From the NCBI GenBank assembly GCA_014584695.1, contig JACTMI010000012.1, positions 1 to 40,096 on the forward strand: DNA of 40,096 nt, in the 5' to 3' direction. This stretch comes from Acidobacteriota bacterium (GTDB lineage: Bacteria; Acidobacteriota; Thermoanaerobaculia; Multivoradales; JAGPDF01). The notes under the pieces are model-generated. The model worked only from the letters and a program-made list of their open reading frames with translations, was not told the DNA's origin and did not search any database. Both the position numbers and the translations under genes were made by a program. Shown here piece by piece: positions 10,739 to 18,311 of the stretch; positions within the stretch are counted from its first letter, which is position 1, and the number at the start of each line of letters is the position of its first letter.

Positions 10739-13264
10739 ATGGACCCGGAGCGCCTGGCCGAGATCGACGCCGTCTTCGCCGCCGCGCTCGAGCTGCGCCC
10801 GGCGGAGCGCCCCGCGTTCCTCGCCGAGCGCTGCGCCGGCGACGCCGCGCTCCGAAGCGAGGTCGAAGAGCTGCTCGAGCAGTCGGGCGAGTGGGCCGAG
10901 GCGCTCGCCGCGCCGCTGCGCGCCGCCGTCGTGCGGCTCGCCGCCGGCACGCCCGGCGAGCTCGCGCCGGGCGCCGCGGTGGGCGATTGGCGGATCGTGC
11001 GGCGCCTCGGCCGCGGCGGCATGGGGGTGGTCTACCTCGGTGAACGCCGCGGCGCCGACTTCGTGCAGCGGGGCGCGATCAAGATCCTGCCGGCGGCGAC
11101 CAGCAGCGAGGCGGCGGTGCGCCGCTTCGAGCTCGAGCGGCGGATCCTCGCCCGCCTCGCCCACCCGCACATCGCGCACCTGATCGACGGCGGCATCGAC
11201 GCCCGCGGCCTCCCCTTCCTGGTCATGGAGCACGTCGCCGGGCGCCCCCTCGACGAGCATTGCGACGAGGAGCGCCTGCCGGTCGAGGCGCGGCTCCGGC
11301 TGATGATCACGATCGCGCAAGCGGTCGACGCCGCGCACCGCAACCTGGTCGTTCATCGCGACCTCAAGCCCTCGAACATCCTGATCACTCCCGACGGGGT
11401 GGTGAAGCTGCTCGATTTCGGCATCGCCAAGTTGCTCGCGCCCGAGCCGGGAGAGGCGGGTTTGACCGCGACCGAGGGGCGGCCGATGACCCCCACCTAC
11501 GCCAGCCCCGAGCAGGTCCGCGGCGAGCCGATCGCCACCGCCGCCGACGTCTACCAGCTCGGCCTCCTGCTCTACGAGCTGCTGACCGGCCGCCGGCCGC
11601 AGGCGGCGACTTCGGGCTCGCTCGCCGAGCTGGTGCGGCTGGTCTGCGAGCGCGAGCCGCCGCCGCCCAGCCGAGCGGTGCTGCTGGCCGGGCCGGAGCG
11701 GACGCCGGAGCAGCTCGCCGAGCTGCGCCGCTCGACATCGGCGCGCTTGGCGAAGCGCTATCGCGGCGACGTCGACGCCCTGGTCGGGCGCGCGCTCGAG
11801 AAGGACCCGGAGCGGCGCTACGGCTCCGCGGCGGCGCTCGCGGCCGACCTCGAGCGGCTGCTCGATGGTCGGCCGCTGCGCGCCCGGCGCCCGACGACGC
11901 TCTACCGGGCCGGCAAGTTCCTGCGCCGGCACGTCGCCGCTACGCTCGCGGCGGCGCTGGCGGTCGTCCTCACGCTGGCCTACGCGGTCGCGGTCACCTT
12001 TCAGGCGCGGGCGATCGAGCGCCAGCGCCAGCGCGCCGAGGTCGAGACCGCGAAGGCGCGCGAGGTCGAGGGTTTCCTGCTCTCGCTGTTCGAGTCCTCG
12101 GATCCCTGGATGGGGCTCGGGCGGGAGATTTCGGCGCGCGAGCTCTTGGAGCGCGGCGCCGAGCGGCTCGAGCGCGATCTCGCTGGACAACCCGAGGTCC
12201 AGGCGCGGCTCGCGAGCGCGCTCGGCGAGATCCACGGCGCGCTCGATCTGGTCGAGGCGGGCCGGGCGCTGGTCGAGCGGGCGCTCGAGCAGCAGTTGCG
12301 GCTCACCGGGGAGCACGACCTCGAGGTGGCGGCGAGCTACCACCGGCTCGGCGTCCTGCACCGGCTCGCCGACGACATCCCGGAGGCCGTCGCGGCGCTC
12401 GCGCGGGCACTCGAGCTCCGGCGCCAGCTGCTGCCGCCGGACGCGCCGGAGCTGGCCCGCACGCTCGCCCGGCTGGGCGAGGCGCAACGCCGGGCGGGCG
12501 ACCTCGAGGGTGCCGAGGCGAGCTACCGCGAGGCGCTCGAGCTCGAGCAGCGCCGGGACGACCCGGCCGGGGTGTCGGCCGCGCTCAGCAGCCTGGGCTC
12601 GCTGCGCTACTCGCACCGCGACTACGCCGGCGCGGAGAGCTTCTTCCGGCGCGGTCTCGAGCTCGAGCGCTCAGCGGGTGACCCGCGGGGCGCCGGGGTC
12701 GCGACGCACCTGCTCAACCTCGGCATGGCGCTGCGGCGCCAGGACCGGATCGAGCCCGCGCGCGCAGCGCTCGAGGAGGCGCTCGAGCTCCACCGCGCGG
12801 TGTTCGGACCCGACCACCTCACCACCTCGTGGGCGCGGGTCGAGCTGGGGATGGCGCACCAGCAGGCCGGCGATCTCGACCGGGCGGAGGCCGAGCTGGC
12901 CGGGGTCTATCCGCTATTGGTCGAGAGGCTCGGCAACGACGACGCGCGCACCGCCGACGTCGGCGTCGGCTTCGGCCAGCTGCGAGTGCGTCAGGGGAGC
13001 TTCGTCCAAGGCGAGCGGCTGTTGCGCGAGGCCGTCGCCGCTCTGGCCGAGCGCTACGGCCCGGACCACTACCGGCTCGGCTCCGGCCTGCTCTGGTTGG
13101 GCCGCGCGCTGGCCGGCCAGGGGCGGTTCGCGGAGGCGACCGAGGCGTGGCGCGCCGGCCACGCCAAGATGCGCCCCGGGATCGACGACAAGCTGCTCGG
13201 GGAGTTCCGCGCGGAGCTGGTGGCCGCAGGTCGGCCGGAGCCCGAAGCGGCGGTGGCGCCCTAG
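10739..13264 (+). CDS. Transmembrane Ser/Thr protein kinase with TPR tail
   Basis: I place the start at ATG 10739, where GAGGAG lies 7 bases upstream; an in-frame ATG at 10664 would add 25 residues of Arg/Ala-rich sequence with no ribosome site. The product is 841 residues. Residues 1-70 are the helical N-terminal segment common to acidobacterial and planctomycete kinases. The kinase domain spans about 84-375: glycine loop LGRGGMGVVYL (90-100), AIKIL with K115, HRDLKPSN with catalytic D208, DFG 226-228 and SPEQ in place of APE. All catalytic residues are present, so it should be active. A transmembrane helix lies at about 399-420. After it come about 400 residues of tetratricopeptide-type helices (e.g. 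AASYHRLGVLHRLADDIPEA), likely a sensing or protein-binding part outside the membrane. It converges with an ECF sigma gene whose stop codon overlaps its own. Confidence 0.93.
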   Translation: MDPERLAEIDAVFAAALELRPAERPAFLAERCAGDAALRSEVEELLEQSGEWAEALAAPLRAAVVRLAAGTPGELAPGAAVGDWRIVRRLGRGGMGVVYLGERRGADFVQRGAIKILPAATSSEAAVRRFELERRILARLAHPHIAHLIDGGIDARGLPFLVMEHVAGRPLDEHCDEERLPVEARLRLMITIAQAVDAAHRNLVVHRDLKPSNILITPDGVVKLLDFGIAKLLAPEPGEAGLTATEGRPMTPTYASPEQVRGEPIATAADVYQLGLLLYELLTGRRPQAATSGSLAELVRLVCEREPPPPSRAVLLAGPERTPEQLAELRRSTSARLAKRYRGDVDALVGRALEKDPERRYGSAAALAADLERLLDGRPLRARRPTTLYRAGKFLRRHVAATLAAALAVVLTLAYAVAVTFQARAIERQRQRAEVETAKAREVEGFLLSLFESSDPWMGLGREISARELLERGAERLERDLAGQPEVQARLASALGEIHGALDLVEAGRALVERALEQQLRLTGEHDLEVAASYHRLGVLHRLADDIPEAVAALARALELRRQLLPPDAPELARTLARLGEAQRRAGDLEGAEASYREALELEQRRDDPAGVSAALSSLGSLRYSHRDYAGAESFFRRGLELERSAGDPRGAGVATHLLNLGMALRRQDRIEPARAALEEALELHRAVFGPDHLTTSWARVELGMAHQQAGDLDRAEAELAGVYPLLVERLGNDDARTADVGVGFGQLRVRQGSFVQGERLLREAVAALAERYGPDHYRLGSGLLWLGRALAGQGRFAEATEAWRAGHAKMRPGIDDKLLGEFRAELVAAGRPEPEAAVAP

Positions 13265-13868: not shown

Positions 13869-14450
13869 CTACTTCATCAGCTTGCCGGCCATCCCCAGGA
13901 TGTCGTCGAGCGGGTTGCCGTTGCCGTCGAGATCGAGCAGCGAGCCGAGCCCCGGCGAGCTGCCGCCCCCCTGGCCGCCGAGCAGGCCGCCGAGCAGCCC
14001 CCCCAACCCGCCACCCGCGGGAGCCGGCTGCGGCGCCGCACCGGCGCCCTGCTGCTTGGCCAGGAAACCGGCGACCAACATGGCCAGCATCGGCAGCATC
14101 TTCTTGAGCAGGGCCGGATCGAGCCCGGTCTGGTTCGCCGCGTTCTGCGCCACGGTGCGGCTGACATCCTTCGAGCCGAAGATTTGGCCGAGGACGTTGT
14201 TGCCCCGGTCGACCGGCGTCGGCCGCGGCGAGAGCACGTCGTCGAGCAGGCTGCCGCCGCCGAGCTGACCGAGCAGACCGCCCAGGCCGGCGAGGCCCGA
14301 CGGTTGCGCCTGCGTCTGCTTCTTGAAGCCGCCGAGCAGCGCCGGCAGCAGCGCCGAGGCGCCGCTCGCGACCTGGCTTTCGCTGACGCCGAGCTCACGC
14401 GCCATCGACTGCAGGCCGCCCATCTGGGAGAGAAGATCGTTGATCTGCAT
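13869..14450 (-). CDS. DUF937 family protein
   Basis: The 193-residue product starts at ATG 14450, with GAGGAG 7 bases upstream. The frame stays open further upstream to 14855 but that part runs through the tmRNA-tail repeats and is not protein-like. The N-terminal MQINDLLSQMGGLQSMARELGVSESQV and SALLPALLGGFKKQ match the DUF937 pattern (helical YidB-like proteins). A hydrophobic stretch MLPMLAMLVAGFLA lies near residue 120. Then come Gly-rich repeats (GGGLGGLLGGLLGGQGGG) and a tail, LLDLDGNGNPLDDILGMAGK, with an EF-hand-like DxDxNxN loop. The function is unknown. It lies directly downstream of ssrA on the same strand, so read-through from the tmRNA promoter is possible. Confidence 0.85.
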   Translation of the reverse strand: MQINDLLSQMGGLQSMARELGVSESQVASGASALLPALLGGFKKQTQAQPSGLAGLGGLLGQLGGGSLLDDVLSPRPTPVDRGNNVLGQIFGSKDVSRTVAQNAANQTGLDPALLKKMLPMLAMLVAGFLAKQQGAGAAPQPAPAGGGLGGLLGGLLGGQGGGSSPGLGSLLDLDGNGNPLDDILGMAGKLMK

Positions 14451-14586
14451 GGTTCGGCTCCTCGAGCGGACGGGGAGAATTCGGCGTGGCGGCCCGAGCG
14501 CGACCGACAGCCCGCCGCCGTGTCCCGGCCGAGGTCGAGTGTACCGGATCTCGAGCGCCGCGCCGCTGGCCCAGCGCAGCCTGGAA

Positions 14587-14793
14587 GAGGCGGTGGGAAT
14601 CGCCACTCGCACAGCGAGTCCAGAGATTCTCCCGCAGGCGCTCGACTGAAAGGAGAGATGGTGGAGGCGGTGGGAATCGCCACTGGCCGCGGAGCGGCCA
14701 GTCCTAGAGAGCACCGCGGCAGGCGATGCGGAGCGAAGCATGGTGGAGGCGGTGGGGATGCGGAGCGAAGCATGGTGGAGGCGGTGGGAATCG
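14587..14793. repeat. Tandem array of tmRNA 3'-tail copies
   Basis: The last 21 bases of ssrA, TGGTGGAGGCGGTGGGAATCG on the plus strand (14773-14793), recur exactly at 14659-14679, over their first 15 bases at 14741-14755, and over 16 bases (GAGGCGGTGGGAATCG) at 14587-14602. Spacings between copies are 77, 82 and 32 bp. The two left copies continue with CGCC and a hairpin: ACTCGC-ACA-GCGAGT (14605-14619) and ACTGGCCGC-GGA-GCGGCCAGT (14682-14702), then AGTCC and AGAGA. The two right copies are preceded by the hairpin ATGC-GGAGCGAA-GCAT, making an exact 32-bp tandem repeat. The array fills the space between ssrA and the DUF937 gene (14451-14772), which has no other gene. Confidence 0.85.
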
Positions 14794-15254: not shown

Positions 15255-15410
15255 CCGCGCCAAGTTTCGACAACCTTCTTGAGCCGAGTCGGGCTCGCAG
15301 GACTTCCGGCCCCGCGCCCAGGCGGCTGCCGTCTCCGTCGACGGCCATCCGCGGGACCAACGGGGGGCCTTTACCCGAGGGTGGCCACGGCCATCCGTGG
15401 AGGCAAGTCG

Positions 15411-18311
15411 ATGAACGAGACAAAGCAGAGAGCTCGAGGCTTCGGTGGTCGCTGGCGGCTGGTGATGGTCGCGGCCGCGCTCGCCGCGCTGTCGGCCGGG
15501 GCGGCGTTCGCCCAGGCGGCGGCGGGCGCGCTCCAAGGGCGCGTGCTCAACGAGGAAGGGGGAGGGCTCGCGGGCGTGCGGGTCACCGTCTCGAATCCGA
15601 CCACCGGCCTGAGCCGCGCGGTCACCACCGGCGCCGACGGCGGCTACCTGTTCGCCTCGCTGCCGGCGGGCACCTACACGCTGCGCGCCGAGCTCGAGGC
15701 CTTCTCGGTGGTCAACGCCGAGGGCGTGGTGGTTCACGTCGCGACCACCCGCACGCAGGACCTGGTGCTCAAGCCGGCCGAGGTCGAGGAGACGATCACG
15801 GTGACCGGCGACGCGCCGCTGGTCGCCACCTCGCCGTCGATCGGCACCGTGGTCTCGCGGAGCGAGCTCGAGAACCTGCCGCTCAACGGGCGCCAGTTCG
15901 CCAACCTCGGCACGCTCGCCCCCGGCACGACGCTGGGCGTCAACCCCGACCCGACCAAGCCGAACCAGCTGGTGATCGCGCTGAACGGCGGCATCGGCCG
16001 CAACGTCAACTACGTCACCGACGGCGGCGACAACATGGACGACACCATCGGCGGCGCGCTCCAGAACTTCAACCTCGAGGCGGTCCAGGAGTTCACGATC
16101 CAGACCCAGCAGTACAAGGCGGAGTTCGGCCGCTCGACCGGCGGCGTGCTGTCGGTGGTGACCAAGACCGGCACCAACGAGCTCGCCGGCTCGGTCTACG
16201 GCTACTTCCGCGACAAGAGCCTGAACTCGAAGACCGAAACCGAGAAGCGGGCGGGCCGCGACAAGGGCGACTACGAGCGCCAGCAGTACGGCGTGGCGAT
16301 TGGCGGCCCCTTCGTCCGCGATCGCGCGCACTACTTCGCCACCGTCGAGCGGACCGACCGTGACACTTCGTTCGTCGTCAACTCGCGCGGCATCTTCCCG
16401 GAGCTCGACGGCCGGGCCTTCGGCCTCCCCTTCGAGGACACCCTGGTGACCGCCAAGGCGACCTGGGATCCGGGCAACAGCCAACTCTTCCAGGCGCGCA
16501 TCGGTTTCCAGGAGACGCGCGGCGAGAAATACTCGGCGAGCCCGCTGTCGACCCCCTCGAACCTCGGCACCATCAACAGCGACTACAAGTCGATCCTGTT
16601 CGGCCACTCCGCGCAGGTCGGCGGCTCGAGCTTCAACGAGCTGGTGCTGCAGTACAGCGACTTCTTCAACGAGATCGCCGCGGACTCGACCGCCCCGCTG
16701 CGGGTGTGGGCCAACGGCGTCTCCGACGGCCAGAACGGCAACACGCCACAGACCACCTTCCAGGAGAAGTGGCAGCTCAAGGACGACTTCAGCTTCACCC
16801 GCGAGATCGCCGGCAGCCGTCACGATTTCAAGACCGGCTTCAACTACATTCACGAGCCGGAGCTCGGCGGCGGCTTCTCGGCCGGGACCACCGGGCAGTT
16901 CTTCTATCTCAACAACGACCCGAACGGGCCGATCCGGCAGATCTCCTTCACCGCCGGCGATTTCCAGTTCTCGACCCCGGTCGACCAGTACTCCATCTAC
17001 TTCCAGGACGACTGGCGGCTGAGCCCGAACTTCACGCTCAACGTCGGCCTGCGCTACGACTACTGGGACGGCTTCGACCTCGACCAGCGCTCGAACCCGA
17101 TCTGGCAGCGTCTCTCGACGCAGACGACCTACAACGAGAAGTACCTGCGCGACTTCCAGGGCGGCAAGGGGGGCGTGCTCTCGAACGACGACGACAACTG
17201 GGGGCCGCGGGTCGGCTTCACCTGGGACCTGCGGGGTGACGGCCGCCGGATCGTCCGCGGCGGCTGGGGGATCTACTACGACTTCCCCTACACCAACGCG
17301 ACCATCCTGTTCCCGTCGGCCGCCGTGCAGTCCGACTACGGCGTCGCCTACCTGCACGTCAATCCCACCGGCATCCGCAACGCCGACGGCAGCCTCTACC
17401 GCTTCGGCCAGCCGCTGCCGCCCAACCAGCTGCCGGCGGCGACCCGCAACCCGCCCAACGAGGTCGCCTCGCCGACCCTCGCCGCGCCGCGCTCGGAGCA
17501 GCTCTCGCTCGGCTACTCGATGCAGCCGACCGACTGGCTCGGCTTGAACTTCGAGCTGGTCAAGATCGAGTACCGGGACATCCCGTTCCGCTTCCGCGCC
17601 AATCCCATCGATCCCGCGACCGGCGCCCGGCGCTTCCCGCAGTTCGGCAGCTTCCGCATCTGGTCGGGCGACGGCGAGGCCGACTACGAAGGGGCGAACA
17701 TCGGCTTCCGGATCCGCGCCGACCGGCTCGAGGTCCAGGGCTTCTACACCTACTCGGAGGCGACCGGCAACATCCTCGCCGGCACCGACGAGTTTCGCAT
17801 CACCGCCGCCGGCCACCAGCCCGACCTTGGCGCCGTCGGCGACCAGTCGGTCAACCCGCTCGACCCCAACTGCGGCGCCTGCTTCGGGCCGCTCAACACC
17901 GACGCCAAGAACCGCTTCACCGTGAGCGCCGTCTACCGCGGCCCGTGGGACCTGGTGATGGCCGGCATCTTCCGCTACCGCTCGGGCTTCCCCTATACCG
18001 AGTGGACGGGAGTCGACGCCAACCGCGACAGCTACGCTTTCGAGCTGCCGGCCGGCGTGTCGAACGTCAACAACCGGCGCGGAGACTCCTTCTCGCAGCT
18101 CGACCTCCGGCTCTCCCGCGCCTTCCAGTTCGGTGCCGGCCCCGAGCTCGAGGTGATCTTCGAGGTCTTCAACCTGCTCAACGAGGAGAACCCGGCGCGC
18201 TTCATCGGCAACCGGTCGGCCAACAACTTCGGCCAGCCGACGGTCTTCGCCGGCGACCCGCTGCAGGGCGAGCAGCGGCTGGGCCAGATCGGCTTGCGGT
18301 TGCGTTTCTGA
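15411..18311 (+). CDS. TonB-dependent outer-membrane receptor with carboxypeptidase regulatory-like domain
   Basis: The ATG at 15411 has GGAGG 7 bases upstream and is followed by a signal peptide (RLVMVAAALAALSAGAAFAQ, cleavage near residue 35), so this start is firm. The product is 966 residues. Residues 38-122 form a carboxypeptidase-regulatory-like beta-sandwich (GALQGRVLNEEGGGLAGVRV, DGGYLFASLPAGTYTLRAEL). VEETITVTGDAP (125-136) leads to the plug domain, with LPLNGRQFANL and YVTDGGDNMDD. From about 260 the rest is a 22-strand-type beta-barrel ending in LGQIGLRLRF, whose terminal Phe is the outer-membrane insertion signal. Such Oar-like receptors are very abundant in Acidobacteriota and import large or scarce substrates, often sugars or peptides. 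No TonB/ExbBD gene or substrate enzyme lies beside it, so the ligand is unknown. Confidence 0.94.
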   Translation: MNETKQRARGFGGRWRLVMVAAALAALSAGAAFAQAAAGALQGRVLNEEGGGLAGVRVTVSNPTTGLSRAVTTGADGGYLFASLPAGTYTLRAELEAFSVVNAEGVVVHVATTRTQDLVLKPAEVEETITVTGDAPLVATSPSIGTVVSRSELENLPLNGRQFANLGTLAPGTTLGVNPDPTKPNQLVIALNGGIGRNVNYVTDGGDNMDDTIGGALQNFNLEAVQEFTIQTQQYKAEFGRSTGGVLSVVTKTGTNELAGSVYGYFRDKSLNSKTETEKRAGRDKGDYERQQYGVAIGGPFVRDRAHYFATVERTDRDTSFVVNSRGIFPELDGRAFGLPFEDTLVTAKATWDPGNSQLFQARIGFQETRGEKYSASPLSTPSNLGTINSDYKSILFGHSAQVGGSSFNELVLQYSDFFNEIAADSTAPLRVWANGVSDGQNGNTPQTTFQEKWQLKDDFSFTREIAGSRHDFKTGFNYIHEPELGGGFSAGTTGQFFYLNNDPNGPIRQISFTAGDFQFSTPVDQYSIYFQDDWRLSPNFTLNVGLRYDYWDGFDLDQRSNPIWQRLSTQTTYNEKYLRDFQGGKGGVLSNDDDNWGPRVGFTWDLRGDGRRIVRGGWGIYYDFPYTNATILFPSAAVQSDYGVAYLHVNPTGIRNADGSLYRFGQPLPPNQLPAATRNPPNEVASPTLAAPRSEQLSLGYSMQPTDWLGLNFELVKIEYRDIPFRFRANPIDPATGARRFPQFGSFRIWSGDGEADYEGANIGFRIRADRLEVQGFYTYSEATGNILAGTDEFRITAAGHQPDLGAVGDQSVNPLDPNCGACFGPLNTDAKNRFTVSAVYRGPWDLVMAGIFRYRSGFPYTEWTGVDANRDSYAFELPAGVSNVNNRRGDSFSQLDLRLSRAFQFGAGPELEVIFEVFNLLNEENPARFIGNRSANNFGQPTVFAGDPLQGEQRLGQIGLRLRF

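Follow-up and report, generated by a model that had tools for sequence, protein, structure and literature searches.

Tandem Copies of the ssrA 3' Tail in an Acidobacteriota Genome: Candidate Members of a Short Palindromic Repeat Family at tmRNA and tRNA Gene Ends

The window, the whole 40,096-nucleotide stretch of Acidobacteriota DNA analysed here, carries two short non-coding units (A and B) downstream of its ssrA (tmRNA) gene, each ending in a copy of the ssrA 3' tail. These units are interpreted here as members, now decayed, of a family of short, non-coding palindromic repeats that sit at tmRNA/tRNA 3' ends in this bacterial order and in which the host tail is duplicated. The probability given to this reading is slightly above one half (about 0.52). 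In relatives, the unit sequence minus its tail, called X, is homologous across different host genes, the tails match the host gene, and the units occur together with, yet differ from, the attachment copies of islands. In relatives, a complete member consists, in this order, of the host tail, approximately 21 nucleotides opened by a TTCGCTTCGCTC-like motif, the tail in inverted orientation, a hairpin rich in GC, GGAGCGA, and a direct tail copy running from the T-loop to CCA. The features of the window are listed in Table 1. The ssrA gene lies on the minus strand, so "downstream" corresponds to lower coordinates.

Table 1. Coordinates of ssrA, its tail copies, and the associated features in the window.
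Feature	Position	Strand	Evidence
DUF937 protein gene, next downstream of ssrA	13869..14450	minus	Pfam PF06078, E 4.5e-20
Unit B, 77 bp: X (14603-14658) and two-mismatch tail copy (14582-14602)	14582..14658	minus	
Unit B hairpin, ACTCGC-TGT-GCGAGT, position as in unit A, stem different	14605..14619	minus	fold
Unit A, 82 bp: X (14680-14740, starts TGCTTCGCTCC) and exact tail copy (14659-14679)	14659..14740	minus	
Unit A hairpin, ACTGGCCGC-TCC-GCGGCCAGT, immediately precedes tail copy	14682..14702	minus	fold
Exact tandem duplication, 2 x 32 bp (CCCACCGCCTCCACCATGCTTCGCTCCGCATC), source of partial tail copy 14741-14756	14725..14788	minus	TRF 100%; 32/32 identity
ssrA 3' tail, T-loop to encoded CCA, CGATTCCCACCGCCTCCACCA, the block that gets copied	14773..14793	minus	
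ssrA (tmRNA), tag ANDNFALAA	14773..15123	minus	ARAGORN; Rfam RF00023, 143.7 bits

The ssrA tail recurs three times downstream of the gene with start-to-start spacings of 77, 82, and 32 bp, as the first-pass annotation of this DNA had described. The copy in unit A is exact (21/21, at +114), the copy in unit B has two mismatches (19/21, at +191), and the third copy is partial, with 16 bases (CCCACCGCCTCCACCA, at +32). In the sense of transcription, the ssrA end ...GTGGGTTCGATTCCCACCGCCTCCACCA is followed by TGCTTCGCTCCGCATC / CCCACCGCCTCCACCA / TGCTTCGCTCCGCATCGCC...hairpin...GTGGCGATTCCCACCGCCTCCACCA / TCTCTCC...hairpin...GTGGCGATTCCCACCGCCTCTTCCA / GGCTGCGC... The tails of the two units degrade with distance from ssrA. 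A 17-base tail core, with up to 3 mismatches allowed, has seven matches in the window against 0.36 ± 0.54 expected, and 0 of 100 shuffles reach seven. Four of the seven matches are the ssrA end and its copies. A chance origin of the tail copies is excluded beyond doubt.

The 32-bp copy is a slip duplication. Units A and B are alike outside the tail too, and the flanks AGTCC, AGAGA, and GCAGGCG (plus strand) that had been pointed out earlier are common to both. A hairpin had also been placed beside each tail copy; folding confirms this for units A and B, and no separate hairpin belongs to the 32-bp copy. Compared with shuffles, unit A folds with a z of −2.55 and unit B with a z of −0.40 only. 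Compensatory stem changes among units A and B and the unit of a congener (G002) amounted to one clear pair by eye and were dropped as evidence.

The neighbours of the units are the DUF937 gene and an ECF sigma factor gene, and no recombinase gene is present between the DUF937 gene and ssrA. An Rfam cmscan of the window returned RF00023 as its sole match, with none to the E. coli rtT family. No synteny with relatives was found for the stretch downstream of ssrA in the flanks compared. Upstream of ssrA, the window contains a divergent gene for a TonB-type outer-membrane protein (15279-18311), and G002 and G009 have a tRNA-dihydrouridine synthase-like gene at that position. The ssrA surroundings are rearranged on both sides between the window and these two relatives.

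No sequence similar to the window units was identified elsewhere in the 4.35-Mb genome. The stretch is unique, and a family dispersed within this genome is rejected. No tail copies were found at this organism's own tRNA genes (tRNA genes of 30 loci, out of 42 tRNA matches). The selC gene of this genome is without a unit, and it is not a matched pair for the window site. PF07508 recombinases are absent from the genome, and all five of its PF00589 genes lie on contigs other than the window's. The integrase that had been suggested as something to look for near the units is missing there.

All relatives compared are draft genomes, many of them metagenome bins, in which hidden collapse or chimeras in repeats are possible. 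The search of the units against the genome and its relatives, which the first-pass annotation had proposed, gave no other site in the genome and a match to a unit of a relative. Unit A is homologous to the unit downstream of ssrA in G002 (77% over 92 bp, E 5.5e-8). Because of this homology, the array must date back to the divergence of the window species and this congener, or further. Most of the 58 relatives searched for tmRNA have no tail copies behind ssrA. Besides the window, copies within 600 bp of ssrA are present in G030 (+102, exact), in G043 (+106, 18/21), and perhaps in G024 (+174, 18/21). Copies beyond an element inserted at ssrA are present in G009, with two 101-bp units (+2882 and +2983) that form a tandem array at 99%, and in G002 (+5570). 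Tandem arrays of 94 bp and 114 bp with decayed tails were seen in the first 700 bp after ssrA at loci L160 (G008) and L161 (G034). A strict pattern of two good tails 76-106 bp apart is found only in the window's genome among 396 genomes of the phylum.

Related units also occur behind other genes in the order (Thermoanaerobaculia). A tail-free pattern, TTCGCTYCGCTC-N42-72-GGAGCRATTCC, was searched across the order along with a reversed control pattern. Its matches were limited to the ssrA units of G009 and G030 plus a single additional place in G030, and the control gave 0 matches. This additional place is part of a chain of tRNA-Sec (selC) tail copies. With a unit of the chain as the query, units were found behind selC in G024, G009, G035, G043, G030, and partly G060, as well as at ssrA in G009. 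The direct copy at the selC sites is the selC tail, ATTCCCATGCGCTTCCGCCA, located, for example, at 11063/11164 in G030, +99 in G009, +95 in G035, and +104, +203, +302, and +400 in G008, where selC has five copies approximately 99 bp apart. Another G030 unit adjoins tRNA-Gly and bears the Gly tail. At every site the tail copy matches the host gene, namely selC (G030, G009, G035, G008), tRNA-Gly (G030), and ssrA. A limitation of hosts to tRNAs with a long variable arm was considered and dropped once the tRNA-Gly unit was found.

The X sequences were aligned without their tails and compared with simple shuffles. The highest z values were between ssrA (G009) and selC (G030) at 11.8 and between selC (G030) and tRNA-Gly (G030) at 11.6. 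Values of 9.2, 7.1, and 7.0 were obtained for ssrA (G030) with selC (G035), ssrA (G030) with selC (G009), and ssrA (G009) with tRNA-Gly (G030), respectively. The ssrA unit of G002 gave 5.8 with selC and 5.2 with Gly. The best z of the window unit A X against units at other host genes is 3.6 (Gly unit), and it is chiefly through G002 that the window is linked to the family as a putative member. Across 413 kb of G030 sequence, 6 of 6 occurrences of GGAGCGA[AT]TCC and 3 of 3 of TTCGCTTCGCTC, motifs that were picked after inspection, are at tRNA tails. The earlier proposal of a repeat family with a captured tmRNA/tRNA-like end is upheld in the relatives, with homologous X at ssrA, selC, and tRNA-Gly and each site's own tail; in this genome, by contrast, the unit has a single site.

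An inverted copy of the host tail is located from about +12 to +28 after CCA in several units. By simple shuffles, and without correction for the number of units examined, p is 0.001 each for selC (G024), selC (G030), and Gly (G030), 0.017 for ssrA (G030), and 0.022 for a planctomycete (G447). The selC inverted tail of G043 matches at 19 of 21 positions. At L291:16582-17300 (G030), two tRNA-Ser genes are each followed by a near-complete inverted copy of their own tail (17/21, and 20/21 for the second), and both have a shared hairpin stretch ending CTCGGAGCGAATCC. This tRNA-Ser palindrome appears related to the X units. Two inverted arms around a hairpin are clear in the selC, tRNA-Ser, and tRNA-Gly units of relatives and are not detectable in the window, where p is 0.35 and 0.83 for the two units against shuffles. 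Nothing is left of an inverted tail in the G002 unit (0.35 to 0.83 for the window units and G002). Inverted tails as a general trait behind tRNA genes were rejected; they occur at only some sites (selC, tRNA-Ser, ssrA, and tRNA-Gly of G030).

Strand exchange by tyrosine integrases takes place inside a short overlap, for which the T-loop is an example. Tyrosine-integrase islands of approximately 25 kb lie between ssrA and its tail-copy unit in G446 and G448 (L195-L198; G446:C43, G448:C115). The PF00589 integrase adjoins ssrA in both (E 1.6e-27 and 1.7e-22), and the attR copy keeps the T-arm from CGGGTTC on. The window copies read ..GTGGCGATTCC, the islands read ..CGGGTTCGACTCC, and the window block is without a complete T-loop/T-arm. 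The ends of the PF07508 element at ssrA in G009 form a dyad, GGTTCGAATTCTTTGCG...CGCAAAGAATTCGAACC, around TCCACCA, and this core alone is common with ssrA. A large serine recombinase as the maker of the copies is rejected on this ground. At L097:3052-4290 (G009), the frame of the large serine recombinase continues into the antisense of the ssrA tail, and attP is readable from two ends. Related large serine recombinase sequence is present directly after ssrA or its copy in G048, G030, and G002. Phage origin was also rejected, as viral contigs are without the tail-tail pattern.

The copies that actual islands leave at these genes are either longer or almost absent, and most of these islands are inserted between the gene and the unit. 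In G009, G002, G446, and G448, the unit is on the far side of the island from ssrA, and the unit therefore predates the island. A serine recombinase element is located behind the copied tail at +102 in G030. In G009, another and older left end comes after the last tail copy. Since these elements landed on copies and not on the gene's own end, the tail copies may be spare landing sites. In G030 (L256/L257; G030:C26:1-26000), the 3' half of tRNA-Sec recurs as at least seven 50-bp copies at intervals of 1-4 kb. Each is preceded by a similar stretch of approximately 200-300 bp, and the segments carry ordinary genes (kinases, IS3-type transposase). The arrangement of this chain suggests a stack of small islands at selC.

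Across 84,980 species, a search for tail pairs spaced 84-114 bp apart yielded ten loci. These are distributed among Acidobacteriota, Planctomycetota, Myxococcota/Deltaproteobacteria, and Gammaproteobacteria, and include G030 and G009 (Thermoanaerobaculia/Acidobacteriota). With one exception, whose contig starts within the tail, every locus has an ssrA gene either within it or elsewhere on its contig. Between phyla, X is unrelated, and the copied block and the hairpins are alike. The copied block ends at CCA and in most arrays starts within the T-loop (..CRANTCC), and the 5' half of the T-arm is missing in nearly all. The block of G445 and G450/G452 also takes in TTC and contains the whole T-loop. 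All 13 units tested fold better than the mean of their own shuffles (z −0.4 to −6.1).

We propose that a unit would arrive or form at a gene end and duplicate the last 18-24 bp in the manner of a target-site duplication, with the gene staying intact. Unequal recombination between the tails would then multiply the unit in tandem, and the distal copies would decay. In this genome, the inverted tail would have been lost to detection and the 32-bp slip duplication would be the youngest event. In the ssrA, selC, and tRNA-Gly units of G030 and G009, the insert is homologous and the duplicated block follows the host gene's own sequence. Target-site-like duplication is favoured over site-specific integration because the latter predicts a tail that is borne by the element and does not follow the host. 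Counted against the family reading is that no transposase or other mover was found with the units. No empty site beside a filled site was found in close strains; in the genus of G452, every congener differs behind ssrA and carries other insertions. A wider proposal, in which one self-adapting miniature element settles behind different tRNA/tmRNA genes, its direct and inverted arms are re-templated from the host tail, and E. coli rtT and the ssrA arrays of other phyla are independent or ancient members of like kind, is considered unlikely.

Plain tandem duplication of the ssrA tail and the stretch that follows it, by slippage or short-match recombination and with no mobile unit, is a possible but rather doubtful source of the window units. 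The hairpins and the tRNA-like end would promote breaks in the T-loop. Such duplication is certain for the 32-bp copy. A 91-bp unit in G451 is duplicated (75/75 identity) with CGACTC at both breakpoints, the signature of short-direct-repeat recombination, on a contig with a coverage of approximately 1 where an assembly effect is possible, and the first 34 nucleotides of X are repeated after the last tail in G447. Unrelated X between phyla also fits, and tandem duplication may account for the arrays of other phyla. Left unexplained are the homology of X at three host genes in one order and the inverted host tails, both of which are part of the family reading. The leftover attachment sites from successive islands that the first-pass annotation had suggested would make each tail copy the attR of an island later deleted to its ends. 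This is quite improbable as the origin of the copies, although ssrA and selC are island hot spots in the relatives, with the tyrosine-integrase islands of G446 and G448, the large serine recombinase elements at ssrA of G009, G048, G030, and G002, and the chain of 50-bp-flanked segments at selC of G030. The copies that take in the whole T-loop (G445, G450/G452) are also as expected of attR. A crossover in the T-loop would retain its TT, which is missing from the window copies, and actual ssrA islands leave the whole T-arm or only TCCACCA. Units outside the islands are the earlier event, the tail-tail pattern is absent from viral contigs, and no recombinase is near the window units.

A functional RNA trailer, in which the repeated tails and hairpins would work within the precursor transcript, for instance by decoying the enzymes that process tails or by forming a switch through pairing of the inverted tail with either the gene end or the copy, is very unlikely. 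It would agree with the folding of the 13 units, with the inverted tail that is placed in several units to pair with either tail, and with the hairpin position kept between units A and B on different stems. The comparable tyrT region of E. coli is annotated as a small RNA, RttR. Most relatives, however, are without units behind ssrA, with the strict pattern in 1 of 396 phylum genomes, unit B barely exceeds its shuffles, the only Rfam match is to the tmRNA itself, and the tails decay with distance. No RNA function is required to account for the window.

The tyrT repeats of E. coli have been known for decades. The rtT (RttR) units of E. coli K-12 tyrT-tyrV resemble those of the window: in both, tandem units immediately follow a tRNA-like gene and carry that gene's T-loop-to-CCA tail at their end. 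The tail AATCCTTCCCCCACCACCA is present at +178, +356, and +534, with one more copy between the two tRNA genes and a period of 178 bp. Like the units of relatives, the rtT X contains hairpins and a 10-nucleotide inverted piece of the tail (GGGGAAGGAT, p 0.008). The two differ in that rtT has a 178-bp unit on tRNA-Tyr with unrelated X, while the units here are 77-106 bp long on ssrA, selC, and tRNA-Gly. A limited literature search found no paper on rtT or tandem tails.

Other known systems share parts of this layout. REPINs and BIMEs (Bertels and Rainey 2011, PMC3116915) are short palindromes that code for nothing, have inverted arms and hairpins, and form clusters in tandem. The units of relatives share these traits, and the window units are likewise short, non-coding, hairpin-bearing, and in tandem. 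REPINs are dispersed between genes and have a fixed arm, whereas these units were seen at the ends of tRNA-type genes, with arms that match the host gene. Dispersal of the REPIN/BIME type was not seen, with one site in this genome and several in G030, all at tRNA tails. Family 2 casposons insert at tRNA gene 3' ends and duplicate 14-15 bp of the target beside the gene (PMC6614799). The layout of gene, target copy, insert, and target copy is similar. Casposons have terminal inverted repeats (TIRs), Cas1, and a polymerase; the units here are non-coding, their 77-82 bp leave no room for genes, and the duplicated block is 18-24 bp. In Dehalococcoides, ssrA islands come with direct repeats, located downstream of ssrA, of approximately 20 bp from the 3' end of that gene, and a serine recombinase gene (dsiB) overlaps attL at the 3' end (McMurdie 2011, PMC3146451). 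The large serine recombinase gene of G009 overlaps in the same way as dsiB. Between the Dehalococcoides repeats lie islands of several kb that contain integration modules, whereas the repeats here enclose 56-85 bp of non-coding sequence with no recombinase.

Bacterial islands land most often at the ends of tRNA and tmRNA genes, and it is routine to read direct repeats of these gene tails as att sites. The units described here would represent a second source of tail copies, which can be separated from att sites by a copy that starts within the T-loop, an insert of less than approximately 110 bp, and the absence of a recombinase. The rtT repeats of E. coli tyrT, long unexplained, would join a wider class that is open to comparative study.
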